A DNA stretch of 64,000 nucleotides from Gigantopelta aegis (lineage: Eukaryota > Mollusca > Gastropoda > Neomphalida > Peltospiridae). Location: positions 46,864,413-46,928,412 of the forward strand of contig NC_054704.1 in NCBI RefSeq assembly GCF_016097555.1. The letters are read 5' to 3'. The notes beneath the pieces are model-generated. The model did not search any database and had not been told where the DNA came from. It saw nothing but the letters and a program-made list of their open reading frames with translations. A program made the position numbers and the translations under genes. The number at the start of each line of letters is the position of its first letter. Positions within the stretch are counted from its first letter, which is position 1. Positions 1,592 through 58,070 of the stretch are shown here, one piece after another.

Positions 1592-4500
1592 CTATAACAG
1601 AACAGAGATGGCTAGCTTTACATATTTATTTCAGAATTTGGAACTCACGTAATGGGCTATCATTCTGATGTTGCTAGCACAAGTTTTTATTTGTTAGCTT
1701 AATTTTGCACATTTAAAAAACAAACAAAATAACAACAAATACTGCTTTACACAACTAGTTTTATTAGAATAGGGAACAGTACTATTTTGTATTCAACATA
1801 AATTACATCATTATAAAGTCTGCAAATGTGAGTTATTTTATACAACCTTTATGTAACATAACATGTGGTATTAATCCAAATAATTACATAATTATGTTTT
1901 TCAAAAAACCCAAAAACGATGTATGTTAACGTAAAAGTTTGTTTTGTTTAATGACATCACTAGAGCACACCAATTTAATAATCATCAGCTATTGGATCAG
2001 CTTAAAGAGGAAACCCACTACATTTTCCATTTATAGCAAGGCCTTGGATATACCAGTCGTGTACATTTATGTAAACCCACTAATAATAAATAATCAAGAA
2101 ATAGTGTGTAAAATAACAAGAATTTTGGGACTAACCTTTACACATTTGAATAGATAGAGATTCAAGATTCATGTTACAGAAAGTGAGTATACATTTCATC
2201 TTGTTTACAACATCATGACGGAAAATGATGAAATGAACACAATACAGTCAAATCTGCTCTAGTAACCACCTGTATTAAGAAGACACCTGTGTTAAGGGGC
2301 CATTTTTATTATTCTCCCAAATCATCTAATATTGTATAAATTGACCAACCTGTATTAAGCAACCACTTACCTTAAAAGCACACGTTTTTTACACTCTCTT
2401 TATTGGCTGCTTAACATAGGTTTATCTATACATTCATAACGAAAGAGTTTTGTATTTTACGACTTGTTTATTTTTTCCCCCTCCCCACCCACCACTTTTT
2501 ATTATCCCAAGAAACATAGGTGATGTTAGGGTTTGGAAGAACTGAATCATCACCGTAGATTTTTTCAGGAAATTGTTTATTTAACGACGCACTCAACATA
2601 TTTTATTTACGGTTACATGGCGTCGGACATATGGTTAAAAACCACGCAGATACTGAGGGAGGAAACCCGCTGTCACCACTTCATTGGCTTCTCTTTTCTA
2701 TTAGCAGCAAGGGATCTTTTATATGCACCATTCCATAGACAGGATAGCACATACCACAGCCTTTGATGCACTGTCTGGAGTGAGAAATAGCCCAATGGGC
2801 CCACCAACGTAGATTTTTTCATCTTTCACATTAACAATAATGGGGTAAAAATAATTTCTAAAACTTTTTTGCTTACCATTGACTCCAGTTCCGAATAAGG
2901 TGCCTCGCTTGTTGCAAGGATCAGCAGTGGCGATGTAGGATCCATGTCCTCTATCAGTGTGAGAAATGTTGCTCGCAGTGTTTCACCCAACACCTCCCAC
3001 CACTGGTTGATGTACGGCATGTAGACAATGCTAGGAGCTGCTCTCTTGGCTTCTCTAAAGACCTGTTGTACATTCGTAAAACAAAGTATATACACATACA
3101 ATTTACACATAAAGCTATACAGAATAACAATCATCAATTTGAAATATATATAAATAAAATGAAACAATATTTCTTCAAATCTGGATATCTTTAGAGATGC
3201 TAGTAAGATATAAAGAGGATTCGTCACAAGTGTTTTTTAATGTGAAAATATCAACTGAGTCTATGGTAATTGGTATTTGTCGAGGCACTGCCGAGAAATA
3301 CCGATTAACGACACAAGATTGATATTTTACATATTAAAAAACACGAGTAGTGAATTCTATTTATCATATAACACTTCTAAAATAACATTTTAATTCGCCG
3401 CCATCGGTAATAAGCCGTCATCACAATTAGCACAAATTAGTTTGATGTCATGTATTTTAACTAAATCTTTGAAAACGTTACGCTCAGGTACACAGGTTGT
3501 GTTGCCTTGTAAGCAAATGACACATCCACAGCAACACATTACCTAGAGACCTTGCAAATTTGCATACCATTATTAACCTGGTTAATACACTAAAATTATC
3601 ACAAGGGTTTATGACATGGATACCATGGGTAAGTTATAGGATCAATTTGTTTAACTAATGCACCCTTGAATGACAGGATTTTCTTTTTTATTTAAGAACT
3701 TAACAGAAACACATACACACACCAACCCTCCTTCAAAAGAAAGAAAACAAAGAAAGAAAAAGAAAACACACCAAAACAACAACACATGGCTATTTTATTT
3801 TTATTTAAAAACCAAAACAAACATGCCTACCTGAGCACATGATTCTTCAGGTGTTTTGGCACTAATGGCATATAGTGTTGGTAAATCCAACACATGAACC
3901 GGCAACTGTTCCAAATAATGTAATATGGCTGGACCGACGTGAGCTGTTTGGCCCATACCAGACATCCCTGAGATAAGAAGGCGCGGCCGATAGGTGGAAG
4001 GTTTGTTGTATGCATAACTAAAAAAAAAAAAAAGCAAATATCAATACTGACTTGATTAAGTGTTTATTTGTATTCACTTGCATAAATACATGAAACCATA
4101 GGTGCAAAAGGTGTAATAAAGCACATTTATCAAATAAAGTTTTGTTTAACGACACCACTAGCTATTGGATGTCAAACATTTGGTAATTTTGAGTCTTAGA
4201 AAGAAAACCTGTTACATTTTCCCATTAGTAACAAGATATCTTTTATATGCACCTACCTATAGACGGGATAGCACATACCATGGCCGTTTTGCGCTGGTAG
4301 GAACAAAAAATAGCCCAATGGGCCCAAACTGGCCGTGCATCAAGCGAGTGCTTTACCACTGGGCTATGTCCTGCCCCTTTCAACTAACAAGCACAGTTAG
4401 ATTATACAAGTAATTAAGCAAAACATAATTTATTTCAATGAATAACCAATTAGTGTACATACTCGAGTATAACACCAAATAATAATAATAGTAAGAATGT

Positions 4501-7500
4501 CAAAATACTAATTACAAAACTGCCATATAAAGAGGCTGAAGCATCTCAAATGTAATACAGCATACATTTAAAGTTTGTTTTGTTTAATGACACCACTAGA
4601 GCACATTGATTAATTAATAATCAGCTACTGGATGTTAAACATTTGGTAATTCTGACTCAAAGTCATCAGGAGAAATCCGCTACATTTTTCCATGAGCAGC
4701 AAGGGATCTTTTATATGTACTTTTCCACAGACAGAAAAGCACATACCACGACCTTTGACCAGTTGTGGTGCACTGGTCGCAATGAGAAAAAACCCAATCA
4801 GTTGGTCCGTTCTTGTGACGCAAGCACATCATGCAAGCATTCAACTGACCGAGCTAAATCCTGCCCCAATAGCATACAGAGGCAGCAAATTGTTCACCAA
4901 TATATATATTTTACCTAGAAAAATTAAGGAATGAATTTTGCATGCTGTCATCATGAGATCCACTGTTCCCTGATAATGATTTCCGGCCCCTACTTCGACA
5001 GTTTTCAAAAATGGATGGTCCACTTTCATCCTCACTGGCCATTTCTTCCAGCAGCGCGTCTCCTTCCTTAGCATGACTACTCACTGAAAAAAAAAAAGAA
5101 TTGTCATATAACAAACTAATGCATTTCAGCAAGTCAAGTTACAGCAAAATACTCTTTTAGTAGCATGTACATTTTCCCGTGATTGGAGTTTTTTAATGCT
5201 GGAAAGAAGTTATTTCATCAATTTTTTTCCAGAGGTATAAAAATATGACAATATTTGATCAAATCTTTATAGATCAAGATAGGGAATAAGACAAAGGGGC
5301 GGGATGTAGTCCAGCGCTCACTCGATGCACAGTTGGTCTGGGATCGATCCCAGTCGGTGGGCCCATTGGGCTATTTCTCGTTTCAGCCAGTGCACCACGA
5401 CTGGTATATCAAAGACCGTGGTATGTACTACCCTGTCTGTGGGATAGTGCATATAAAAGATCCCTCACTGTTAGCCCATGAAGTGGCGACAGCAGGTTTC
5501 CTCTCTCAATATCTGTGTGGTCCTTAACCATGTCTGACGCCATATAACCATAAATAAAATGTGTTGAGTGCGTCATTAAATAAAACATTTCTTTCTTTCT
5601 GATTTGACAAAAGTGTAATGACACTATATTCCATTCCATATTTAAAAACATAGAAACTCTAAGGCAAAAAAGTACTAACAACAAGTAGTTATTGAAAACA
5701 TGCATTAAAACAAGTTTAAAAAAAAAACCTGAACAAACTATTGCTAAACCTTTTTATAAGTCATAACTTAATTATTAAAATTAGGTCAAAGGTTACCTGG
5801 GGCATCAAAGGATGCCATCTGAGCTAGAACACTTGGGAATGTATCTTGAAGAATGGACAATGACTGTTGCAGTGAATTTTTCAGCAAGGGCTGGACGATT
5901 TTTGACAATGGTCTGGCAGGCGATGTGACAGATCGCTGAGCAGTTGGAACCACCACCTGCATCCCACTGAAGAAATCTTTAGCAGACACATTGATTGAAG
6001 ATACGTCAAGCTGGAGCTTTTCATTAGATGTGTAAATCTGTGGGTATCGTCTACGAAGGGCTAACAAAGCAGCCTCTGTACACAGAGCTTTGAGATCAGC
6101 ACCACAATAACCTGTCAAAAAGTAACGAAAACAAACAATGATTAATCAGTAAAATTATATGAATTCTTACAATCATAACTCCACAGGCATTAACTGATAC
6201 TAAATGATGTTACCTATAAAATTAGCTATATTAACATATTACCCCGCCCCCTCAAAAACAAATCTGTCATAGTGTGTTTATGTTGGTAGTAAAGTGAAAC
6301 CACTTAAAACCCCACCCCCAAAACTGGAAATTTTTCACGGTCCTTTTTAAAAAATCAGTACAGAACTTAACCTCTCTAAACCAGACCATTTAATTGGTCC
6401 TGAGTGTGTCCGGTTTAAAGGGGTTTCAATGTATTTGAAACACACAAAAAAGAAGTTTTCTCCTTTGTTTTCAAGCTAATAGTATTAATGATCATTATTT
6501 GATAAATTTCACCATAGTATTTATGTGTTAATATACTTGCTCATACATGTATGATGAAATGTGGTCGATTGATTGATCATACTTATCAAAAGATATTAGT
6601 TTACTGTGGAACTGGGCAATCATTCAATCCGAAACAAAACTTCTGAATTTTACCACTCGTTCAAGAAAATGTTCCATACTGTCACATCCCTGCAAATCTT
6701 TTAAAATTCTGTAAAAATAATTAATCTGCTGCATGTGTATTTAATTACACTCACCTATACACCGATGTCCCAATTCACTTATAAATTCACTTGACAATTT
6801 TGGCTTCCAGTCCTTTGTATTGATCTGAAGAATTTGTTTTCTTGCCTGACAAAAACAACAACAAATATTTGAAGAATCACAAGAGAACATTTTCAGGAAC
6901 ACTCGACATATCAAAACACACTGAACAGGTTATATAAAAATCTTCAAAGTCTGTTAGAAGTTTATACATTTGAAAACCAGGTTAGGGAGAGCAGTTTATT
7001 TTTTGAAGGGGGTCAAGTCAACTATTAACTAGTATTTTTAGAAATGTAAGTTTGCCTGGCTGCGTACATGTTGAAAATATGGTACTAGCCTATATGTAAC
7101 AAGGATATACCTCCAGAGTTGGAAGAGGGAAGAGAAATTCTCTATCAAATCTCCCTGGTCTTCTCAAAGCAGGGTCAATGGAATCAATCCGATTTGTTGC
7201 ACCAATCACAACTATTTCACCTCTGCTGTCTAGACCGTCCATCAAGGCTAGAAGAGTGGAAACAATGGAGCTGTGGATCTGATCTTGTCTACTGGACCTC
7301 ACAGGTGCAAGGCCATCAATCTCATCAAAGAATATAATTGACGGTCTCACTTGGTATGCCTATTACAAAAAAAATAAAAAAAATAATAATAATAATAATA
7401 TTAATACATGTAATATAAAATATTTAGCAAGATGTTAAAATCACAAGTACAGATTATTTGCTTATTAACACTTCATCACACAATGTTTTAGAGAAAATGC

Positions 7501-16567: not shown

Positions 16568-19500
16568 TATATAAATAACCCCTTGCCAAACAATGAGATG
16601 ATGCCGGTTACACTCGAGAATAATACACGAACTTTTGTTGCGAAATATACGTTAACAAGTTGCATTAAGTTGTGGTATGCATGTAAAATGGCTTGGTCAC
16701 AGAGCTACGACAAGAAACTGTTTGTTTTCAGTCGTACCAATGTATTTATAATAAATGGTACATGGCATACTTCTCACATCCCACACACAGGATAGCATAC
16801 ACGTCCTTTCATGAATCATTGGTTGGGACGGGGAAAATCCGATTTTTTTTTTCATTTGAGCGGGACTCTCAATCCTCCGTTGGGGGGGGGGGGGGGGGGC
16901 GCGGGGGCGGATTGCCCGATACCCCCCCCCCCCCCCCCCCGGCTACAGGCCTGACATGCATGGCACTTAATATGTTTGCTTCAAACGAAGTACCTTATGA
17001 CTGCGCATAATAAAGCCTCAGTTTACCTTTGTTTACATATTTTTTCTTTCTATGTAAAACACCATATTTGTTAATACTTTCAGCTCTCACTTATCTTATA
17101 CTTTGTGTAAAGTCTATTACCTTAATTCTAAATTATTACCTGTATTGTTCAAACAAGCTGAATCCACTAACATCCAACTTATGCAAGCATGGAAAATATA
17201 ATATCCCCGCCATAAATCCGCTATGGTCCTTTTTCAAATAATGACACTTAAATGCCAGGGACTATGAGATCCGGTAAAAAGAAAAGATGTATTAAGCTAT
17301 ATAAAATGCAAGAACTTTAATATTTATTGTTTGCAAGATACACATTTTTCGATGGAATTAGAGCCATATATCCAAACCCAGTGGGGATACAAATGCCTTT
17401 TCAACTCGTATTCCACAAACACTAGAGGAATAGCTATTTTGTTTAATAATAACTTTGAATATAGCATACATAAAACTAAATCAGATGGCTCCGGAAATTT
17501 CTTTATTTTAGATATTACAATAGATGGAGAAAGAATACCATTAATTAATTTATATGGTCCGAATTCAGACAATCCCGATTTCTTTCAGTTTATATTGGAA
17601 TGCATTGTAGATTTTGACAATGATAAATATATTATATGTGGAGATTTTAATTTAGCACTAAATCAACATTTAGATACAAAATATTATTTAAATGCTAATC
17701 ACCCAAAAGCTCAACAAAACATCATCAAAAATATGGAACTGTTTGATTTAAAAGACCCATTTAGAGAATTATATCTAAATCTTCGAAGATATACATAGCG
17801 AAAAAAAAACACTGCTCAAACAAGCTAGACTAGATTTTTTTCTTATAGCAAATAATTTAATGCCTGCTGTAAAGAAAGTAATAATCGAGAATAGTTATCG
17901 TTCAGATCACGCTGAGTAGTTTTAATTTTAAAATTTAATCAAATGAAAAAGGGTACTGGACTATGGAAGTTTAACAATTCACTTCTAACAGGTAAAGAGT
18001 ATGTTAAAACAATAAAAGAATTAATAGAACATATCAAACATCAATATGCTGTACCTGTATATAATAATTTAAATTTAAAATCGATTCCAAAAGAAGAAAT
18101 ACAATTTATAATAAATGACCAGCTGTTTTTGGAAACATTACTGATGGAAATAAGAGGCAAGACAATAGCTTTTTCCTCATTCAAAAAGAAAAAAAAAAAT
18201 GAATTAGAAAAACTACTTTGTGCTGAAATTAAAACATTAGAAGAAAGTGAAAATATTGACGTAGAAGCAATTGAAAAAAAGAAATATGAACTAACAGAAC
18301 TAAGAAAAGAAAAATTGAAGGGTAGCTATATCAGATCAAGGGCAAAATGGATAGAAGAAGGGGAAAAACCATCAAAGTTCTTTTGTAACTTAGAATCTAG
18401 AAATTACTTTAGTAAATTATTATCAACTATAAGATTAGATAATGGAGAGGTAATTGATGACCAACAAAAAATATTAAAAGAAACCAAATCATTTTACCAA
18501 AAGCTTTATTCTGCACCTGTTGGGCAAAATAATGACAATCTAATGGAAAAAATTGGTAATTATAAATTTAACAAATTAAGTGATAAAGAAGCAGAAGAAT
18601 TAGAAGGAGATATAAAATATTCTGAAGTATTAACTTTTTAAAAGGAATGAAAAATGACAAAAGTCCTGGGTCTGATGGTTTTTCTGCAGAGTTCTTCAAA
18701 TTTTTTTGGATGGACATTGGATATTTTATAGTTAGATCCATTAATTATAGCTATTCTGTCAAAGAAATGTCTCATGTCCAAAATTTAGGCATACTTACTT
18801 GCATCCCTAAAGAAAATAAACCTAATGAATTTCTTAAAAACTGGAGACCTTTAACTTTGTTAAACTGTACTTATAAAATGACATCTGGGTGTATAGCTAA
18901 CAGAATAAAGCAAGTACTAGATAAAATTATAAACAAAGACAAAACTGGCTTCATTAAAGGAAGATATATTGGGGAAAATATAAGACTAATATACAACATT
19001 ATGTATTACACTGAAACACATAACATACCTGGGTTGCTGTTACTAGTAGACTTTGAAAAAGCATTCGACTCAGTATCATGGTCTTTTATAAATAAAGCAC
19101 TAGACATATTTAACTTTAAAACTTCTATTAAAGATTGGATCAAAACTTTATATAACAATTCTTTATCAAGGATAATGCAAAATGTTTTTTGTCTGAACCA
19201 TTTCATTTAGAAAGGGGATGCGGACAAGGGGACCCATTGTCGCCATATGTGTTTATTATATGCGCTGAAATTCTAGCAATTCTTGTTAGAAATTGTACAT
19301 CAATTAAAGGTATAACTATAGATGGAGAAGAATATTTAATATCCCAATATGCGGATGATACCAGTTTCATTCTTGATGGATCACCAGAGTCCCTTCATAG
19401 TACGCTGAAAGTTCTAGATAATTATGCTCATACTTCAGGCTTAAAAATAAATTATTCAAAATCAAGCGCTATCTGGATAGGCAGTAAAAAGTTTTCTAAA

Positions 19501-22500
19501 GATGTTTTTCACCATACTAGATGGAAACTAGACTGGGGGGCAACTGAATTTAAACTACTTGGAATTAAATTCCCAGTCATGTTAGAACATATCGGTGAAC
19601 TCAACTATGACCCTAAAATATTGGAAATGCAAAAGTTAATAAAAATATGGTCAGTGAGAAAATTAACTGTTTTAAGGCGAGTCACGGTTCTAAAAGCCTT
19701 AGTAATACCGAAGTTAACACACCTTTTAATGGTATTACCAAACCCAAACGAAAAAGTAATAAAACATCTGAATACATTATTTTAAAATTTATTTGGGAGA
19801 ATAAACCAGAAAAGATCAAACGAACATTAATAACACAAGACTACAAAAATGGTGGTATAAAAATGATAAATATAGATAACTTTCTTATAGCTTTAAAATG
19901 TGTATGGGTTCGAAGATTGTTTCAAGAAAACTCAAAATGGATAAGCCTATTTAAATCAGTTACAGGTATATCCACAAAGGATCTAATCTTATATGGGGAT
20001 AATTTTATTGTTCGTAAAACATTGCATATGAAAAATATGTTTTGGAAAGATACTCTGGAAAATTGGGCAGAAATACAACAAAAACAAAATCCGAATAATG
20101 TAGAAGACATACTTGGAACAAATATATGGCTTAACAGTAAAATAATAATAGATCATAAACCATTTTTGTATAAAACCTATATTGGTAAAAGCATTATTTT
20201 TATAAACGATTTATTAGACGAAAATGGAATTTTTTAAATATATGACCAGTTTGTTGAAAAATACCATATAACTACAAATTTTATCAACTATGCATCATTA
20301 ATAAATGCTGTCAAATCATTTACATATAAATTAGATCAGTTAAAAGACGATCATTTTAACACAGTGAAAAATCCTATATACCCTTTAAAACTGCAACTAT
20401 TATTAAAAAGTAAAAAAGGGTGCAGAGATATGTACGACATTTTAAATTTTCAGTATGTAAAGCCAAAAGGACAGATAAAATATAGTAATGAAGGCTTTTT
20501 GTTTGAACAAACTGACTGGGAAAAATATTATGCTTTACCATTTCGATGTGTGAAAGATTCTAGCCTTCGATGGTTTCAGTATAGATTACTGCAAAAGATA
20601 TTAGCTACTAATACTTTTCTATACAAGATTAACTACACTGATTCTGATATATGTAACTTCTGTAATAATTTTCCTGAAACAATACATTTATTTTTCGATT
20701 GCAATCAGGTACACACTTTATGGGAAGCAGTAACAGATTGGATATTTACTCGAAGAGGAACTATAATTCATTTTAATAAAATTATTATGTTTGGTTTGAT
20801 AAATAATAATAAAAGCGATTTTATAAACTGGTTAATAATTAATATAAAATATTATATATACAGTATGAAAACACAAAAGAAATGTTTAAGTATTAACGCT
20901 GTGCATGGCATAATGCAACATAAATTTGAAATTGAAAGATATATTCTTTTAAAAATTTGTAAATATGATGTATTTAATAATGAATGGGCAACCTGGCAAA
21001 CACTATTTTATTGAGACTTAAAGATAATCTCGACACGGAAACAGCTTGTTTAAAAACAAAATTCAGACTACATTTTAGAACAAATATAATACTTTTAATT
21101 TCATTTCTTCCGTATATATTTCTGGTAGATGTGGGTACATCTGTGAATATATGTACATGTATAATATATATGTGTATGCATTTATGTATGTAGGTATCTC
21201 TATGAATATACTGTCATATATGCGCAATTATGCACAAAGTAACTCTGTTCCTTCTTTCGTTTCTTATTTCTTTTCTTTTCTTTTTTCTCTATCTTTCTTT
21301 TCAATTTAGGTCAGTGCCCTAGAGGAGTTTAAAGAATATTTCTTCATACTAGATATGTCTATGTAATTACCTGTATATGTTACTACTAATATATATATGC
21401 TATGTGTTGTAGTAGTGATTTAGGGCCCCAACCCTAACACCATGTATTCTTCTGGGACAATAATAAAAAAATAAAATTAAATAAAATAAACCCTCAGGAG
21501 TTTATAATAAAGAGACCATCCTGAGTTTGTAGCTATATTATCAAGCTGTCGGCTAGTCTAATCTGCTATAAATAAAACTTACATCTTTCTTATGTTAAAT
21601 AATCTTGCTTTGAATTTAAATAGCTGTATATGCAATAGTTACATTTCTGACCATTATCAGGTCGGTAGCAACCGAGACGTCGGAGGGGGGACTATAGCCC
21701 CATTTTTATAAACCCGGTTTAAAATATGCCCCCCCCCCACCCCCCCCCACTACAGATTGTGCCCCCTTCCCTCCCCCAACTCCAGATATCGATCCAACGG
21801 GCCTGATTCTGTTTTATATACCCTAGCTCAAATTTCATATGTATCATTTAATTTTATTCCAAATACCGAACACAATTTTTAATAATTTGGTGAAAAGAAA
21901 TCCCAACAAGAATCCTGAATGTATTTATCTGTATAATGCTTTATAAATATTTAAATCATGTTAAATACAATAAATATCTGCATACATACACGCGCGCACA
22001 CATTAATATTATTTCAGCCTATATCCGATATTTATTGCGTACGAATCCGAACCGAAGGTTTGTCGGGCGTTAACCAAATATTTTTTTATTTTGTGATAAG
22101 CAATAATTCACAAATGTCTCCAATAAGTCTTGTTGGATGTTGACAGAATTTTCGGCTTCCCTACTGATAGAATAATTAATCATGGAGATATTCACATTCC
22201 TACTGCGTGGCCTCCCATTGTCTATGCCCCCACCCCCAACTTGTCCACAGGTCTATTTTTGCGAGATCTCGCGTGAGTTCGCGTCCTCACTTAGTCTTAC
22301 CCCGCAACGGGCACATGCGCAGTGGAATGTGAAAGAGGTCTATTACAAAAAATGACTCTTAACAGAGAAAATATGTTGTGGTCTTTAAAAACTAGGATCA
22401 GTCATTTAATAAAAGATTTTGTATTAGTATTTATTACCAAACCAAACAATTAAGTTGCCTTTCAAATGGAGTGCCAGTCCAACATTACGAGTTTGACGAT

Positions 22501-28500: not shown

Positions 28501-31500
28501 TTTCTTCATGCAATTTTAACTCTTTTTTTTTTTTTACTTGACTAATGAATTTAAATCCATTCATAAGAAATACAAACAGTTTGCAAGAACATTCTTGAAT
28601 ATCCTCAAAAACCATTTGTTTGCTGGCTCCGAACTGTTGTGTGATGATCAGTACTGATCACTGCCAACTCCAGTGATGCAGACATCTATTAGGTCCTAGC
28701 AAGGGGTTTTCAACTAAAGCGGAACATCACTTCCATAAACTGACTCAAAAAATGTCGTACACAGGGCTAGCTATGAGTGATCAGAAGATTTTACCAAATT
28801 ATCTGGAAAAAATGCAAAACCTAACAGCTATTTTCCAACAAAATATCAATTATTACACAAATTTTTTTTGCCAAATTAAACTATAACTTGCCAATTGTTC
28901 TTCAAATTTGCAAATGTGGCGAGTGGCAGAACTACAGCAAGTCATGTAAAAATAGCAGCATATTAATAAAATGTCTTACATTTGCATCACTATTGTGGTC
29001 ACCGGCTTCATCCTCATTAAAAAGCTGATTATTCTCCACTTTTCTTTTCTTGCTCGACCTTACACCTGGGTCGTCTTTGCCAGTCTCGTTTGGCGTCTGA
29101 CTTCCTTTAAGTGAATCATAAACCAATCTCTTTTGACGTGAACTTCGCCTGACTGCACTGTTATATTCCTCTTCATCCTTTTCAGATACCACGTTTCTGC
29201 TAGAATTAGATGTTATGCCTCGTAACTGTTTGCTACAATGCCGTTCCCTCTTGTTTTCCTTTGGACTCATTTTCTTTGTACTTTTCCGACGCTTTTTCTT
29301 AGCTCTAGATCTTGATGATGGTGAATCTGGTAAATAAAATATACCATTATTAAAAAATAAATAATTACAATGTAATCCTTTGTCAGATTATTTAAGTAAA
29401 ATAATACTAATTATTATAGTAATGTCAGATTATTATTGGGGTGGGGGGGGGTGTGGGGGAGAGAGTTCAGCAGAGTACCATAGGATATTGATGCAGTTAG
29501 AACTTCAGTTTATGAAGTGTCATGTTCATGTCCACCCATAAATTTATATTTTGACGATTTGAAAATGATATTGTCGCTTCTGAATATAAATTCACCGGAA
29601 TGGACTATAGCAATTATATTGGTGATAGTGATGCTCTAAAACAGCAAACAATACAAATATACCATCTTATTAATAAGGCGACATCTCTGAGCGAACTACT
29701 CATGGCATGACTTTTCAACCATTTAAATTGATAAGCCTGTTTGTGTTGGACCCCAGTCACAACCTAATATTGAAAGGAGGATCTCTGTCACAGTGTGGAA
29801 AAGTATAGCAGGGCGGCAGAATGTGAAACGGGGGCATTGTATTTGCAAATCCAATGACTACATATTCTTATGAATCCTTTAAAATTAATTTACTAACAGT
29901 TTCTTGTATATTACACTCTGATCTACTGGGACATTATGAATTAGTACTTACCTTCATCTGAAGAGCCATTGATAAAATATGCACCACTGAAAAAAAAGAA
30001 GAGGATAATTTCAATGAATCATAACTTTTTAAAACTGAAGAGCATTATATATATTAAAACATTATTATAAACAAGAATTCCACAGAATTAAATGTCTTGC
30101 CTACCATAAAATAATTAATTTCAATGCATGTTTGAAAAAAAAATAAAAAAATAAAAAATATTGAATTCAAATTTAAAAAAAAAAAAAAAATGATTCCACA
30201 TACATCATTTGTGTATAGATACACAAATGATGTATGTGGAATCTTTTTAAAATTTAAGATCTATAGGTGCAATTGATCTAGTACTTAAGAATTTGTCAGA
30301 AATGGAGCTAAATGTAAAACTTAATGTTGAGTTAAATGCAAAAGCTGATGCCATTTTTGCTGCCAAAAATTTAATACCTGCATCTTGCCTGTTTACATTG
30401 TAAAGGCATGACAGCAAAACAACTGAATCATACTGTGAACTGTGTTCTTTATTTAGTATAAGAAATTTGACCTTTAAAATGAAATTTAAAACTACATGTA
30501 TAATAAGTAGTAAAATTTAATATGATTCATGCTTTAAAAAATATTGAAGAACATTTGGCTCCATACCTTAACAAAATTTGTGGGTTGTTGATTTTAAAAA
30601 TAATAATTATTATATAAATACCTTGAACGAATTTTAGGCCTCAGATTTCTTTGAGGTGGCAAAAGTGAATCATCTAAATTCTGCTTACAGGACTGAGGGA
30701 ATTCCGAAATACCACTCTCTTCACTGTCTACATCCTGTAAAAATCATTAACATGTTTATTGCACACATCAGATAAGTTGTTCTTATTACAGAGTTCATAC
30801 ACTTTCTAAAGCAATCACCATGACAGTTTAGGATTTCTGCTTAGGTGAGCCATGACTTATTGTATAAACTACAAATGAAATAAAAAAAGAGAGAGAAAAG
30901 AATAATAACAAAAATAAGTATAATTTTTAAATTGTCGTGCTTAACATAATAGTATTAATACATATAAAAGTACTTAACAGATGACATATATCATATATAA
31001 CTCAAGTTTTGATATGGTGGTGATGCGCGAGGGTACATGGCTAGTGTTGCATTCGTTTTAATAATTACAAAAATTAGGGCACCAAGGCAAACCTTACCTT
31101 CAAAAGAGGGGCAACTTAATATCTATCAAATTATCTTAGACAAAACTGATTTTACCCTGGTACCTTCGGCTCTAGCTTATGCAATTTGTTGGATATGCAT
31201 GCCTTTTATCAAATTGCCAATGATGATCATGTTTTTACTATTTCTTACAGGTCAACATCCAATTTTCGGGCACAATGGCAAAACTTGCTGTGGTAAAATT
31301 CAGAGAACATTTTTGTTCAGGATCACACTGTGATTCACTATGCTAGTTTCAGAGATCACCATGCAATTTTAAAACATTACAGACCCTAATCTTGCCAGCA
31401 AAGTGAGTGCTTTCTTTGCCATAAGTCGGCGAGTTATTAGCAGTAGTGAGAAGTCGAAGTAAGATTTTGGCCTAAATCTGATTTAAAAAATTAAATCACA

Positions 31501-52997: not shown

Positions 52998-53231
52998 TAT
53001 TAAAGGTGCTATGTATTAAAGGAGCTATCTCCATGTTGCATAATGACAGTTATTGCAAATACTTTTTTAAATTAAATTTTACGTTACAATTTAAAGGCTA
53101 CACCTTCAACTATATGCCCATAAATGATTATAACAAAATAATTTTATCTACTAGTAGAAAATACATTTTTATTGGAGAATCTTTATCACAAACAGATGCT
53201 CATATATAACTATGATATAGCACCTTTAAGT
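52998..53231. mobile_element. TTAA-flanked miniature element
   Basis: TTAA-AGGTGCTATGT ... ATATAGCACCT-TTAA. Short TIRs inside a TTAA duplication; ~230 bp, non-coding, nested in the long-TIR element. Confidence 0.72.
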
Positions 53232-53944
53232 GCTTGCAAGATTGTGTAAATTTCTAATGTACTTATATTGAATTTATATTCACTAAATATGCTGAAAAGA
53301 ATTAATAATTTATGCTGCAATTCAAAATACTCAGTTAACTTGCAGTTTTAAATTAAAAGTTTGTTTAATTGTAAATGAAATTAACACGTCTATCAAAATG
53401 TGTTATAGTCTGTTCCAATAAAGAGCACAAATCACCTGTTTACTGACATACTTCTTTTAATTTCAAGAGTAAACACCACCTTGTACATCAATGAGAGACA
53501 AAACAAGTAATTGCTAAATTAGGAAGAGTATCATTAAATAAATATTTACAAATTATTTACTTGTCAGTTTAATATGAAAGAAATAATCGACGAAAATCAG
53601 TTTTATTCTATTTCTGACAATACTTTAGTAGGCCTACGCTGGTCGATGTCTATTACCAGATAGACGAGTAGAGGTGATTTCAGTCAGATTGCATCATTAC
53701 CTTATATCGCTAATATAAAAATCTAAGGATTAGCGGTATAAACAATCTCCGTATATTGTTGCAAATATCAATCGACATTGCCAAAAGTAACCATTCTCCG
53801 GAATGGTTAAATGAAGCCCACAGCAAGAACTGATGGGGAAATGTCGGGTGTATAGCACGGTATGCAACAACAAAGTTTATTGGGGTTGGAAAGACGAGTA
53901 CTGTGATGAGGAGATTGCAAAAGAAGTTGAAAAAGTTTAAAAGT

Positions 53945-54170
53945 TTTGGTTTTGTTTAACAACACCACCGGGGCACATTGATTTATAAATCATCGGATAC
54001 TGGATGTCAAACATTTGGTAATTTTTGACTCGTCTTGGAGGAAACTCGCTACATTTTCCCATTGGTTTTGTTTTTTATAATATGCATTTTCCCGCAGATA
54101 GAACAGCACATACCACGTTTATTTTATACACCAGTCGTGATGCACTGATTGTGACGATAGAAAATAAAAA
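53945..54170 (-). mobile_element. SINE, diverged
   Basis: Reversed tail 'GTTTTGTTTAACAACACCACC', core and 'ACACCAGTCGTGATGCACTG'. It ends ~190 bp left of the BIR/PC4 element. Confidence 0.75.
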
Positions 54171-54358
54171 ATCTGAGCAACACACTGGTTCGATCCTAAC
54201 AAACCAAGCACCTAGGGTGAGCACTCCACCGACGGAGGTAGATCCCACACCTAAATGAAGTCGAGACAGGAGGAGCTGCCAGATCGAGAAGAAATGGAAT
54301 GAAATATTCAAATGAGAAGACTGAACTTTGGCATTGGGATAAATGAGCTTGACCTGGT

Positions 54359-54364
54359 GCTGGA
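54359..54364 (+). repeat. Target duplication, left (GCTGGA)
   Basis: GCTGGA, immediately outside the left TIR; repeated at the right. Confidence 0.8.
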
Positions 54365-54630
54365 AGTAGTAAGGGGGCCTACCGGGAGTCATGACCTACT
54401 TTCAGTGACCTTGACCTTGATGACGTCGCGTGACCTCGTCCTACTGACCCGGCCCTGACCTACTTAGACTGACCGTGACCTACTTAGACTGGCCTACTGT
54501 GCCGTGTGCAACGTCCTACTGACCCGGCCCCTGACCTACTTAGACCGGCCCCTGACCTACTTAGACCGGCCCCTGACCTACTTAGGCTGGCACGAAGAGT
54601 ATAAAAAGGCTAGATACGGTTTAATTGTCA
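54365..54630 (+). repeat. Left terminal inverted repeat (~266 bp)
   Basis: Contains tandem ~22-bp units (CTGACCTACTTAGACCGGCC-like) followed by a TATA box at 54600 and 'GGCTAGATACGGTTTAATTG'. Confidence 0.88.
54600..54609 (+). promoter_or_regulatory. TATA box in left TIR (inward)
   Basis: TATAAAAAGG on the plus strand. It would drive transcription toward the N gap, where an ATG at 54808 begins a frame that enters the gap. Confidence 0.55.
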
Positions 54631-54831
54631 CGATTGTTATTCGATCTACTACGTCATTATTTGGAGATTCGTTTGAGATATTTTGTCATTGTTAGAAGAA
54701 GATTCATTTGGATCATTGCGAGAGATTTTGTCAGTGTTAGAAATCGACTGGATCAAGACTTGAAAATAGTAAGTTAATTTTCTTATTCTGATTTAGTTTG
54801 AAGAACTATGTGTTTGCAGTGGTGGACAAAT

Positions 54832-55031
54832 NNNNNNNNNNNNNNNNNNNNNNNNNNNNNNNNNNNNNNNNNNNNNNNNNNNNNNNNNNNNNNNNNNNNN
54901 NNNNNNNNNNNNNNNNNNNNNNNNNNNNNNNNNNNNNNNNNNNNNNNNNNNNNNNNNNNNNNNNNNNNNNNNNNNNNNNNNNNNNNNNNNNNNNNNNNNN
55001 NNNNNNNNNNNNNNNNNNNNNNNNNNNNNNN
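54832..55031. other. Assembly gap (200 N)
   Basis: Exactly 200 N, probably a placeholder of unknown true size. It interrupts the BIR/PC4 element, so its real length and any plus-strand gene are unknown. Open frames spanning it are artefacts. Confidence 0.95.
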
Positions 55032-55092
55032 TATGACAAAACATACAGTTATGACAAAAAACATTCAAGTGTCTCACGCGTGTTTGAAACAG

Positions 55093-55629
55093 TTAATGTC
55101 TGAACACGTTATTCACATAGGGACATCTTGGAGAGAGTCTGTAATGTTCCATCACTGGGTCGTCCATTCTCTGCCATCGGTAGGCGCGTAGTCCACAACA
55201 GTAACAGACGACGGCATCGTGATCCCCTGTGTAGTAGAAACCGGCCTTGGCGAGTTTCCTCGGTTTCTGGCGTAACTGTATGGGCCACCACCCAAATGTC
55301 TGCATCCTGGCATAGAAATGTCTCATTTCAGGACGATGACAGAACAAGTAACGTCTCGAATAGCAGTCTTCCTCATCCCAGGCAGCGTCTGTGTCACAGG
55401 CAGCATCCGTCTGATCTGTGGGTTCATCCACGAGTTCGCCATCTTCAATTCTATCCCCAATTTTGCGTGTAACATCTGCTTGATCCACACAATGAGTACT
55501 CTTCTTCTCATCTTGTTTGCTAGTCACACATTTGATTGTATGTCTTTCTGAACATTTGCAGACCAAGACGTCGTCCTCGTCGCTACTGTTGCTGCTACTA
55601 CTAAGACTGCTCGAATATCCTGATGCCAT
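55093..55629 (-). CDS. BIR-domain (IAP-like) protein
   Basis: A 178-residue protein from the ATG at 55629 (the frame extends upstream but without an ATG). Its N-terminal half is Ser-rich then acidic (SSSLSSSSNSSDEDD; DEEDCYSRR). One BIR domain fills the C-terminal ~90 residues: 'FGWWP', 'KLAKAGFYYTGDHDAVVCYC', 'DDPVMEH' and a perfect zinc signature C-x2-C-x16-H-x6-C. There is no RING, CARD or second BIR before the stop. BIR proteins bind caspases or other partners through this fold, and bivalve and abalone herpesviruses also encode BIR proteins. Whether this one has a host, transposon or viral origin cannot be decided here. A TATA box lies ~112 bp upstream. Confidence 0.85.
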   Translation of the reverse strand: MASGYSSSLSSSSNSSDEDDVLVCKCSERHTIKCVTSKQDEKKSTHCVDQADVTRKIGDRIEDGELVDEPTDQTDAACDTDAAWDEEDCYSRRYLFCHRPEMRHFYARMQTFGWWPIQLRQKPRKLAKAGFYYTGDHDAVVCYCCGLRAYRWQRMDDPVMEHYRLSPRCPYVNNVFRH

Positions 55630-55740
55630 CTTCTTCGTTCCAGATAGAGTGCAACAAGCCACACGAATGTCAGAATCATAAAACACGTCTGTTCTCTAGC
55701 ACAGTCGCAAAGCAAATGAAGTGTAAACCATAAATCCATT

Positions 55741-55748
55741 CTTTTATA
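55741..55748 (-). promoter_or_regulatory. TATA box of the BIR gene
   Basis: TATAAAAG on the minus strand in the interval between the two cargo genes. It suggests the BIR gene has its own promoter. Confidence 0.55.
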
Positions 55749-55777
55749 CCTTCGAGTTCATCCAAAACAAAACTCGT

Positions 55778-56316
55778 TCACCACTGGTGACACTCGTTAG
55801 GGTTGCAGAAGTTACACTGAAGAAATCCCATCTGGTTTTGATGGTCGTCTTGCATGGCGCAGGGCACAATCGAGTTCAGCTCTGGTACAAAGTCACACAT
55901 GACTGTGAAACAGCCTTTCAGTTTCTCCCATTGTTGTAGAGAAAGAATATTCCCTTCTTCGAAGGTTTCACGGATTTAGTTTCTTCACACCACCACCACT
56001 GACGCAGGTCCACCCCAGCAAAGTTCTTGTCGACGCTGACATGGACGTTGACACCAAGGTGTCTGAACAATGTTTCGTCTTTCCCCTGGTTTAATGCTGA
56101 AATCGTTTCGTCAATTTGGCTTTTACATCCACACAGTTCGATCCACTGTTTAAGACTAAGGACAATACCTCGCTTGGTGGGGAAAGTTTTCCCCTTGTCA
56201 CTGTCAAATTTCCTTATGTGAATAGCAGTGTCCCCTTTCCATAACTTGGCCACCACGTAGACGTTAGTTCCAAGTCCTAGACGACATCTCGCTTCATCAC
56301 TTGTGGAACAGGCCAT
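55778..56316 (-). pseudogene. Tandem PC4-like gene, frameshifted near 3' end
   Basis: From ATG 56316 the frame runs 132 codons to a stop at 55918. A first PC4/p15-like unit is seen in 'GDTAIHIRKFDSDKGKTFPT' and 'KRGIVLSLKQWIEL', which corresponds to the 'IREYW ... GRKGISLNPEQW' core of SUB1/PC4. A second unit begins at 'VDLRQWWWCEETKSVKPSKK' but the frame slips within its last strand. The remaining similarity continues in another frame to a stop at 55778-55780. PC4 folds bind single-stranded DNA and act as transcription coactivators. The slip may be real decay or a sequencing error next to the gap. Expression would start from the right TIR TATA box. Confidence 0.7.
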
Positions 56317-56357
56317 CTCTGGATTGAACGTAGATCTGATCGTTTTCGGCGAGCGAA

Positions 56358-56622
56358 TGACAATTAAACCGTATCTAGCCTTTTTATACTCTTTCGTGCC
56401 AGTCTAAGTAGGTCAGGGGCCGGTCTAAGTAGGTCGGGGGCCGGGTCAGTAGGTCAGGGCCGGGTCAGTAGGACGTTGCACATGGCACAGTAGGCCAGTC
56501 TAAGTAGGTCACGGTCAGTCTAAGTAGGTCAGGGCCGGGTCAGTAGGACGAGGTCACGCGACGTCATCAAGGTCAAGGTCACTGAAAGTAGGTCATGACT
56601 CCCGGTAGGCCCCCTTACTACT
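56358..56622 (-). repeat. Right terminal inverted repeat (~265 bp)
   Basis: Reverse complement of the left repeat with a few substitutions and one rearranged ~22-bp subunit. Confidence 0.88.
56379..56388 (-). promoter_or_regulatory. TATA box in right TIR (inward)
   Basis: TATAAAAAGG on the minus strand, 72 bp upstream of the PC4-like start codon. An initiation site ~30 bp downstream would fall at the inner edge of the TIR. Confidence 0.65.
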
Positions 56623-56628
56623 GCTGGA
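56623..56628 (+). repeat. Target duplication, right (GCTGGA)
   Basis: GCTGGA, immediately outside the right TIR. Confidence 0.8.
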
Positions 56629-57316
56629 ACAACTTCCATGGGGTTAGGCTTTGGCACTTGGCGAACTTTAATCCAAATCAAGAGTGAATGAGACCAATGA
56701 CGGTCGAACGTTAACCAAGTTGAGCATTATTCAAACACATATCCAGTAAATTATGCAGGGTGGGGTCTAGACTGGCGATGAAAATTTCTAGGAGATTTCA
56801 GGAAAATATACTGATGGGAAGAAGTAAGGGATCGCGCCAACACAAACAGAAAAGAATGACTGCGACCAGAAGCCTCATTTATACACTCTGGAAGTTAACC
56901 TCATTACTGACATTGAATCTCACTTTAATGACAAACAATCCCATATTACATCTTTATACTTTATTCACAGACTACGACGGTATTGGTGACTGATATTTGG
57001 TCTAAAATACCAAGTGTTCCCTTATTTCTTTCTCTCAGTATATGTTTAAAAAGAAAATTCACTTTAAGCGGGGTTGGAGATTCAGCAGACACGGATCTAG
57101 GGGAACGCTGGGCATGGTAAGAGTTTTGAACATGCCTTTATTTATTTATTTATTTATTGACGTCAACAAAAGGTGGGGGGAGGGAGGGGGAAATCCATCT
57201 GCACACAAGCTTGATTAGCCTATATCGGTGGATGATGATGAATTGTTCTCTAGCCTCTATAACAATGGGTGCAACATACAAAATGGCAACGAAATTGTAT
57301 ACAAAATGGCATAGAT
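56629..57316. other. Intergenic, no gene seen
   Basis: Right flank of the BIR/PC4 element. A (TTTA)n run at 57139-57160 and a G-rich run at 57174-57190. The 77-codon frame at 56760 has no recognisable features. Confidence 0.55.
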
Positions 57317-57629
57317 GCGGCGGGACGTAGCCAGTGGTACAGCGCTAGCCTGATTGTGGTCGGTTTGGGATCGATCTCCGTATGTGGGCCCATTGGGCTA
57401 TTTCTCGTTCCAGCCAGTGCACCACGACTGGTAGGCTATATCAAAGGTCGTGGTATGTGCTATCTTGTCTGGGATGATGCATATAAAAGATCCCTTGTTA
57501 CTAATGAAAAAATGCAGCGGGTTTCCTCTCTAAGACAATTTGTCAAAATTACCAATTGTTTGATATCCAAAAGCCGATGATTAAAAAAAAAATCATTGTG
57601 CTCTAGTGGTGTCGTTAAACAAAACAAAC
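57317..57629 (+). mobile_element. SINE, full length
   Basis: Head 'GCGGCGGGACGTAGCCAGTG' with B-box-like 'GGGATCGATCTCC', core 'AAAAGATCCCTTGTTACTAA', tail 'CTCTAGTGGTGTCGTTAAAC'. Confidence 0.85.
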
Positions 57630-57638
57630 TTCTACATT

Positions 57639-57804
57639 CAGAGCTGTAGCTAGCGGGGGAGGGGGGGGGGGGGAAGTTTCCGGAACAAATTATAGAAACT
57701 AAAGAAAAATCTCTTCTTAACCATTTAAGAAGTTTTAGACTATTAACTACTCCGTTCTCCCCCCCCCCCCCCCCCCCCAACAAAAAATCCTAGCTACGGC
57801 CCTG
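57639..57804. mobile_element. hAT-like miniature element with ACATT duplication
   Basis: CAGAGCTGTAGCTAG ... CTAGCTACGGCCCTG TIRs with poly-G left and poly-C right. ACATT is duplicated exactly on both sides. It is inserted directly behind the SINE tail. Confidence 0.8.
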
Positions 57805-58070
57805 ACATTATATATTTAGTCCAATTTCCTCCTCCTCAACACAATAAATACTGGTTTTACACCCTCAGGATTTTCATAGTACTGTGAAGTTTGGAGGGTG
57901 GAGTGAACACCCACTCCTGGATATGCGTTTGATTATGGACAAGATCCTATCCATATGGCAGTCTTTGTTAAAAATATTTTGTTTCAGTCCAGAACATTAA
58001 AAAAAATTGCTATATTAGATTTAAGTATTCCATAGTGAAGCTTCTGACCCATCTAGATAGTGTTATAATA

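Follow-up and report, generated by a model that had tools for sequence, protein, structure and literature searches.

The DNA analysed here, hereafter the window, is a 64,000-nucleotide stretch of contig NC_054704.1 of the Gigantopelta aegis assembly GCF_016097555.1 (positions 46,864,413 to 46,928,412 of the forward strand), and the element under study lies at its positions 54,359 to 56,628. The element is a candidate Polinton/Maverick copy that is bounded by long terminal inverted repeats (TIRs), contains a run of N, and carries a gene with a BIR domain and a gene with two PC4 domains on the minus strand. The coordinates of all features are collected in Table 1.

The two TIRs were found to be 266 bp (left) and 265 bp (right) long and to agree at 260 of 268 alignment columns (97.0%); their alignment score of 241 compares with a maximum of 11 over 204 control stretches from the same window. 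The long TIRs of the initial annotation were thus recovered, and its term near-identical holds with the correction that three substitutions and five gapped columns separate the two copies. The termini read AGTAGT...ACTACT and the 6-mer GCTGGA is exact at both flanks, as expected from the Polinton-type AG...CT ends and target duplication that had been proposed. The inward TATA boxes in both TIRs, beginning at 54600 (+) and 56388 (−), and the mollusc host, Gigantopelta aegis, also agreed with that annotation. In particular, the left TIR contains three 21-bp tandem repeats, and the array is less regular in the right TIR. The GC content of the element is 46.7%, compared with 34.5% for the window. 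TATAAAA occurs at a density of 1.2 per kb on the two strands of the window, so that a single box alone is weak evidence; beyond the three boxes in Table 1, the sequenced part of the element is without this motif. An Rfam search of window positions 53000-58000 gave no match.

Table 1. Features of the element, in window coordinates.
Feature	Position	Strand	Basis
Left target site duplication copy, GCTGGA	54359..54364	.	flank comparison
Left TIR, begins AGTAGT, with 21-bp tandem repeats (54524-54585)	54365..54630	+	alignment
TATAAAA box, inward, within left TIR	54600..54606	+	motif scan
Arm B: non-coding leader, GTAAGT (about 54769-54774), TGCAG acceptor-like end (about 54815-54819)	54631..54831	+	alignment
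Assembly gap, exactly 200 N; may hide core genes unless these are deleted	54832..55031	.	N-run scan
BIR gene, 178 residues, intact frame, single BIR domain, no further Pfam domain above cut-off	55093..55629	-	Pfam
TATAAAA box upstream of BIR gene (third box, absent from the initial annotation)	55742..55748	-	motif scan
Tandem-PC4 gene, broken: residues 1-125 at 56316-55942, residues 120-179 at 55960-55781	55781..56316	-	Pfam and frame comparison
Right TIR, ends ACTACT	56358..56622	-	alignment
TATAAAA box, inward, within right TIR, upstream of PC4 gene	56382..56388	-	motif scan
Right duplication copy, GCTGGA	56623..56628	.	flank comparison

Both domains predicted from the initial reading of the two minus-strand genes were confirmed by Pfam, the BIR domain at E 8.4e-22 and the PC4 match at E 4.6e-16 in two stretches. 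The best PDB profile matches of the BIR protein were the BIRs of NAIP, cIAP1/2 and Drosophila DIAP1, and the alignment indicates that the C-C-H-C residues expected for zinc are retained; the NCBI names for its relatives are 'baculoviral IAP repeat-containing protein 2-like/3-like' and 'XIAP-like'. The BIR gene is intact; the PC4 reading frame is broken, being split into two frames at about 55942-55960, and the window copy is therefore probably defective.

Among viral structures, the tandem PC4 model matched MOSUB of the Branchiostoma lancelet adintovirus best (E 1.4e-7, TMq 0.59), at a root mean square deviation (rmsd) of 10.5 and only 17% identity, and a protein of Drosophila-associated adintovirus 2 ranked eighth (E 2.7e-3). 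As MOSUB is the top viral match of the predicted structure, PC4 may belong to the ordinary gene set of an adintovirus-like group rather than being captured cargo, and the word cargo in the initial annotation is doubtful for PC4. When the PC4 alignment was used to scan contigs of prokaryote genomes, no match was found. Additionally, three Haliotis relatives (P0028, P0030 and P0038) have a CARD added to the tandem PC4 protein; in this abalone fusion, a death-fold domain is joined to the PC4 pair.

A genome-wide TIR search, in which 40 of 853 candidates were scored so that copy counts are lower bounds, provided 20 loci for sibling comparison, where TIR pairs were selected for matches beginning at TIR base 1. 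TIR pairs were present at 10 of the 20 loci, all ten with AGTAGT/ACTACT ends, and eight of the ten (L023, L025, L026, L028, L029, L035, L039 and L040) were flanked by their own, differing, perfect 6-bp duplications, as befits the mobile, multi-copy unit that had been suggested. The gap-free pairs with a perfect duplication measure 4440, 5203, 5786, 5891, 5919 and 7176 bp. Identity between the two TIRs of one copy reached 99.0% in L040 and 97.0% in both the window copy and L023, with 93.9% over 132 columns in L039 and 89.1% in L028.

Gene content was called by comparison with the frames of L042, L025 and L026, with whole or partial genes counted, and revealed PC4 at 16, BIR at 15, integrase at 6 and ATPase at 8 of the 20 loci. 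The gene order in L042 and L035 is TIR-PC4-BIR-integrase-p145-p127-p113-ATPase. The L042 integrase matched Pfam rve (E 5.4e-15) and chromo (E 1.3e-8), so that larger copies with an integrase on the same TIR, as envisaged, do exist. The L025 ATPase matched Pox_A32 at 22.9 bits (cut-off 22.8), with Adeno_IVa2 below its cut-off. For p145, p127 and p113, the last scanned in its 108-residue L042 form, there was no Pfam match above cut-off, and no search aimed at capsid or protease was made; p145 and p127 may resemble capsid-related Polinton proteins, although we do not put this forward as a claim. L043 and L044, the neighbours of L036 and L033, showed no core genes.

Arm B, the 201 bases that follow the left TIR inward, was 98.5% identical in L030, 96.0% in L023, 94.1% in L040, 90.1% in L036 and 87.0% in L028. 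The splice-like GTAAGT...TGCAG of arm B (54769-54819) was kept in all six aligned copies and is a possible short intron. At L045 on C3, arm B was matched at 93.6% over bases 14-201, and about 2 kb further on lies an open frame that runs for 798 codons until the stretch ends and shares its phase with the PF03175 match in a frame of 1540 residues. PF03175 (B-family DNA polymerase, PolB) was found near family arm sequences at C3:2576427-2578547 (+) and C6:100906236-100907873 (+), and PolB beside the same TIR, also foreseen in the initial annotation, is thus supported by neighbourhood at both loci. In particular, L046 on C6 has PC4, BIR, an integrase encoded by a single open frame, p145, p127, p113 and an ATPase start on the minus strand, together with PF03175 matches in a 1316-residue plus-strand frame 18.5-20.4 kb from the TIR; the arm bearing PC4 and BIR (arm A) and PolB point at each other. 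Of the 40 TIR places listed, two lay at most 30 kb from one of the 85 distinct PolB places, with 0.18 expected. Genome-wide, these 85 places hold 124 PF03175 matches, many with open frames longer than 1000 residues, which point to a large Polinton population in Gigantopelta aegis.

As evident from these comparisons, the window element can be assigned with high confidence to a family with two arms, as a germline Polinton/Maverick (adintovirus-like) copy of Gigantopelta aegis. Its visible sequence comprises the outer part of each arm, and the 200-N gap takes the place of the middle. Several observations weigh against this assignment. No core genes are visible in the window copy, and the only place left for them is the gap; none was found beside the TIR at four of the 20 loci (L028, L030, L036 and L038), and a full-length integrase frame occurs only in L042 among the first 20 loci, and in L046. 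L024 and L042, two of the ten pairs, have no clean duplication, and the TIRs are merely 80-85% alike in L024, L025, L026, L029, L035 and L042. The TIR match of L046 begins at base 26, and we infer from neighbourhood that PolB and arm A on C6 form one element; arm B and the PolB frame on C3 would likewise be parts of one element. In nine intact PC4 copies, nonsynonymous (dN) and synonymous (dS) divergence were 0.016 and 0.023 (ratio 0.72; dN<dS in 22 of 36 pairs), and strong selection on PC4 was not seen. The functions of the BIR and PC4 proteins are also ones that we infer. Finally, the window copy could be an internally deleted derivative, as discussed below.

The N run within the element is the sole one in the window. 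As a 200-N run is present in 10 of the 20 sibling loci, we take the gap to be a placeholder, and the apparent length of 2.26 kb is no measurement; the middle of the window copy is either unsequenced or deleted. The initial description of the element as small or compact is therefore not supported, as it rested on the gap; the six gap-free siblings span 4.4-7.2 kb, and the TIR-PC4-BIR-integrase arm on C6 has its PolB match at the distance given above. We lean modestly towards a full middle in the window copy. A compact non-autonomous derivative of 2-3 kb, which kept both arms with PC4 and BIR, lost the middle and was moved in trans by full-length relatives, appears less likely; it is a sub-case of the Polinton family reading that differs only in the content of the gap. 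L023, at an apparent 2232 bp, is close to it in length and carries an internal deletion, its PC4 fragment adjoining an integrase fragment, and the gap-free siblings with perfect duplications offer scant room for a whole gene set. Integrase was not found in five of these six siblings (L025, L026, L029, L039 and L040), which indicates that deleted forms with intact ends exist. However, L023 shares the 200-N gap with the window copy, the other case of about 2.2 kb, and no gap-free pair shorter than 4.4 kb was present among the 20 loci. The stretch directly past the window BIR also matches copies that have integrase downstream: its 61 bases are 100% identical to L031 and L034, 98% to L035, 97% to L042 and 78-79% to L032 and L033, and integrase lies downstream in all of these except L034, which ends just past the BIR.

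That scaffolding around the gap had joined unrelated ends is very improbable. A fixed-size gap does sit inside the window element, and several siblings show one arm only, adjoining a gap, but GCTGGA is matched on both outer sides of TIRs that are 97% alike, and a TIR pair with a perfect duplication is present at nine loci including the window, six of them gap-free inside. It is extremely unlikely that a cut-and-paste transposon from a different superfamily, such as Ginger or IS3EU/GingerRoot, picked up host IAP and PC4 genes. Integrase-type transposases are common to the Ginger, IS3EU/GingerRoot and Polinton groups, and IS3EU/GingerRoot likewise give 6-bp duplications (PMC10045372). However, Ginger has TGT ends with 4-5-bp duplications and IS3EU TA..TA ends, whereas the window family has AGTAGT..ACTACT; both groups are also contradicted by its packaging-type ATPase and by the PolB next to its arm.

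Within the Polinton family thus preferred, the BIR gene showed a divergence pattern of its own. Thirteen copies were compared, namely 12 of the 20 loci and the window; L023, L028, L030, L033, L036, L037, L038 and L041 were excluded as gapped, broken or without PC4/BIR genes. The mean difference was 8.8% for BIR and 1.4% for PC4 plus spacer, and in 74 of 78 pairs BIR had diverged further. Between L042 and L026, there were 4 differences in 686 positions of PC4 plus spacer and 64 in 522 of BIR (Fisher 5e-20), and identity was 99.1% in PC4 plus spacer, 83.5% in BIR, 90.2% in p113 and 93.6% in ATPase. A swap of the whole interior from BIR inward was considered and dropped, because the divergence peaks in BIR. 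The TIRs differ by 6-10% in these comparisons, so conservation is uneven along the arm. Between the window and L034, the two parts show about the same level of difference (7/687 in PC4 plus spacer and 7/537 in BIR), and these two copies thus share a BIR type. For six intact BIR copies of the ten listed, four of other lengths being dropped, mean dN was 0.051 and dS 0.235 (ratio 0.22), with dN<dS in all 15 pairs. For BIR as for PC4, restriction to intact copies biases the ratios downwards, and the pairs are non-independent. We read these sequence comparisons as suggesting that BIR types are exchanged between co-replicating elements and that the BIR protein is under constraint. Such a sharp local excess of divergence together with a low dN/dS would be expected of a virus gene kept for meeting the cell-death defence of the host.

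KRBA2 is derived from an integrase. A Gigantopelta aegis gene model, P0020, was found to run from a BIR of the window family into the family integrase, whose part in this model is identical to L042 at 213 of 222 residues (96%); Pfam did not find rve in P0020 because only the later part of the integrase is present. The predicted structure of P0020 folded alone had a pLDDT of 36 and was not used. In the Gigantopelta aegis genome paper, IAP and KRBA2 are among the expanded immunity-related families (PMC7895826). Judged from the sequence of this BIR-to-integrase model, at least some of the expanded IAP/KRBA2 'immune genes' may be proviral, and the counts of IAP and integrase-like KRBA2 genes, argued to reflect immune adaptation of a vent snail, may include provirus genes. 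The broader proposal has three parts: that the one-chain PC4 pair and the single-BIR protein form a host-facing arm, that BIR is an exchangeable module within it (types about 83% identical beside 98-99% for PC4, with the dN/dS given above), and that a good part of the IAP/KRBA2 expansion is proviral rather than host immunity. We advance it tentatively, at somewhat less than an even chance.

A scheme for the element can be outlined as follows. The integrase would insert the linear DNA by strand transfer with cuts 6 bp apart, producing the 6-bp duplication, and the repeats of the end triplet would allow PolB to jump back during protein-primed replication. Expression of the outer genes would be driven from the TATA boxes; the PC4 pair, a single chain, may bind the single-stranded DNA of strand-displacement replication or act in transcription, and the BIR protein may delay apoptosis of the replicating cell.

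Other features were also observed in the window. A dispersed repeat, p131, initially encountered as an L026 frame, is present at positions 2566, 5384, 10750, 14886, 58064 and 62490, and was also matched in some element copies and at several loci. By eye, a cluster of frames at 17331-21014 (+) resembles a non-LTR (long terminal repeat) retrotransposon, with an endonuclease and a reverse transcriptase-like frame, and exon-like frames at 2826-6118 and 28932-29270 (−) resemble ATAD2.

Searches for relatives beyond this genome were negative within their scope. Viral contigs scanned with the PC4 and BIR alignments, P0020, P0009, P0025, the L042 integrase and two TIR patterns gave no protein relative; L001 and L002, matches of one TIR pattern with 17-19 bases shared with the TIR, were counted as chance, having no protein match better than E 0.1. 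Among the papers listed in a literature search, no title or abstract start described BIR or PC4 in Polintons, which does not establish absence from print.

The likeness to adintoviruses is one of predicted PC4 structure, with the MOSUB identity and rmsd given above, and we know of no BIR gene in adintoviruses. The window protein is like cellular and viral IAPs in its BIR domain; it differs from them in having one BIR, no RING reported by Pfam, an acidic N-terminal half and a location in a Polinton arm. Mollusc herpesviruses, named in the initial annotation as carriers of BIR genes, were considered as well; the genes found next to the BIR gene in this family are integrase and ATPase. Compared with PUR-alpha, human PC4 and MoSub1, the PC4 protein has two PC4 domains in one chain and a conserved HQNQ...CxxC tail.

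The closest parallels were found with the vertebrate Mavericks, which one study (PMC8097293) describes as having (AGT)2//(ACT)2 ends, TIRs of 46-1447 bp and two modules with accessory regions flanking the core, intact ones being intronless. The Gigantopelta aegis family has the same ends, a 6-bp duplication and a TIR length within that range, and its copies include integrase, packaging ATPase and PolB; accessory genes lie beside the core, and opposite-strand modules would face inward in the element proposed on C6. The overall plans are similar but not identical. In contrast to the vertebrate elements, the ATPase belongs to the integrase module here rather than to the PolB module, arm B has an intron-like GTAAGT...TGCAG leader, and the copies with both TIRs seen are deleted or gapped. 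Additionally, the accessory arm genes are tandem PC4 and BIR. In this mollusc, many copies (BIR at 15 of the 20 loci) thereby link a gene of the apoptosis-inhibitor type to a Polinton arm. The carriage of a BIR gene in such an arm is a new point, and the PC4-BIR arm is what sets this Polinton/Maverick variant apart as new.
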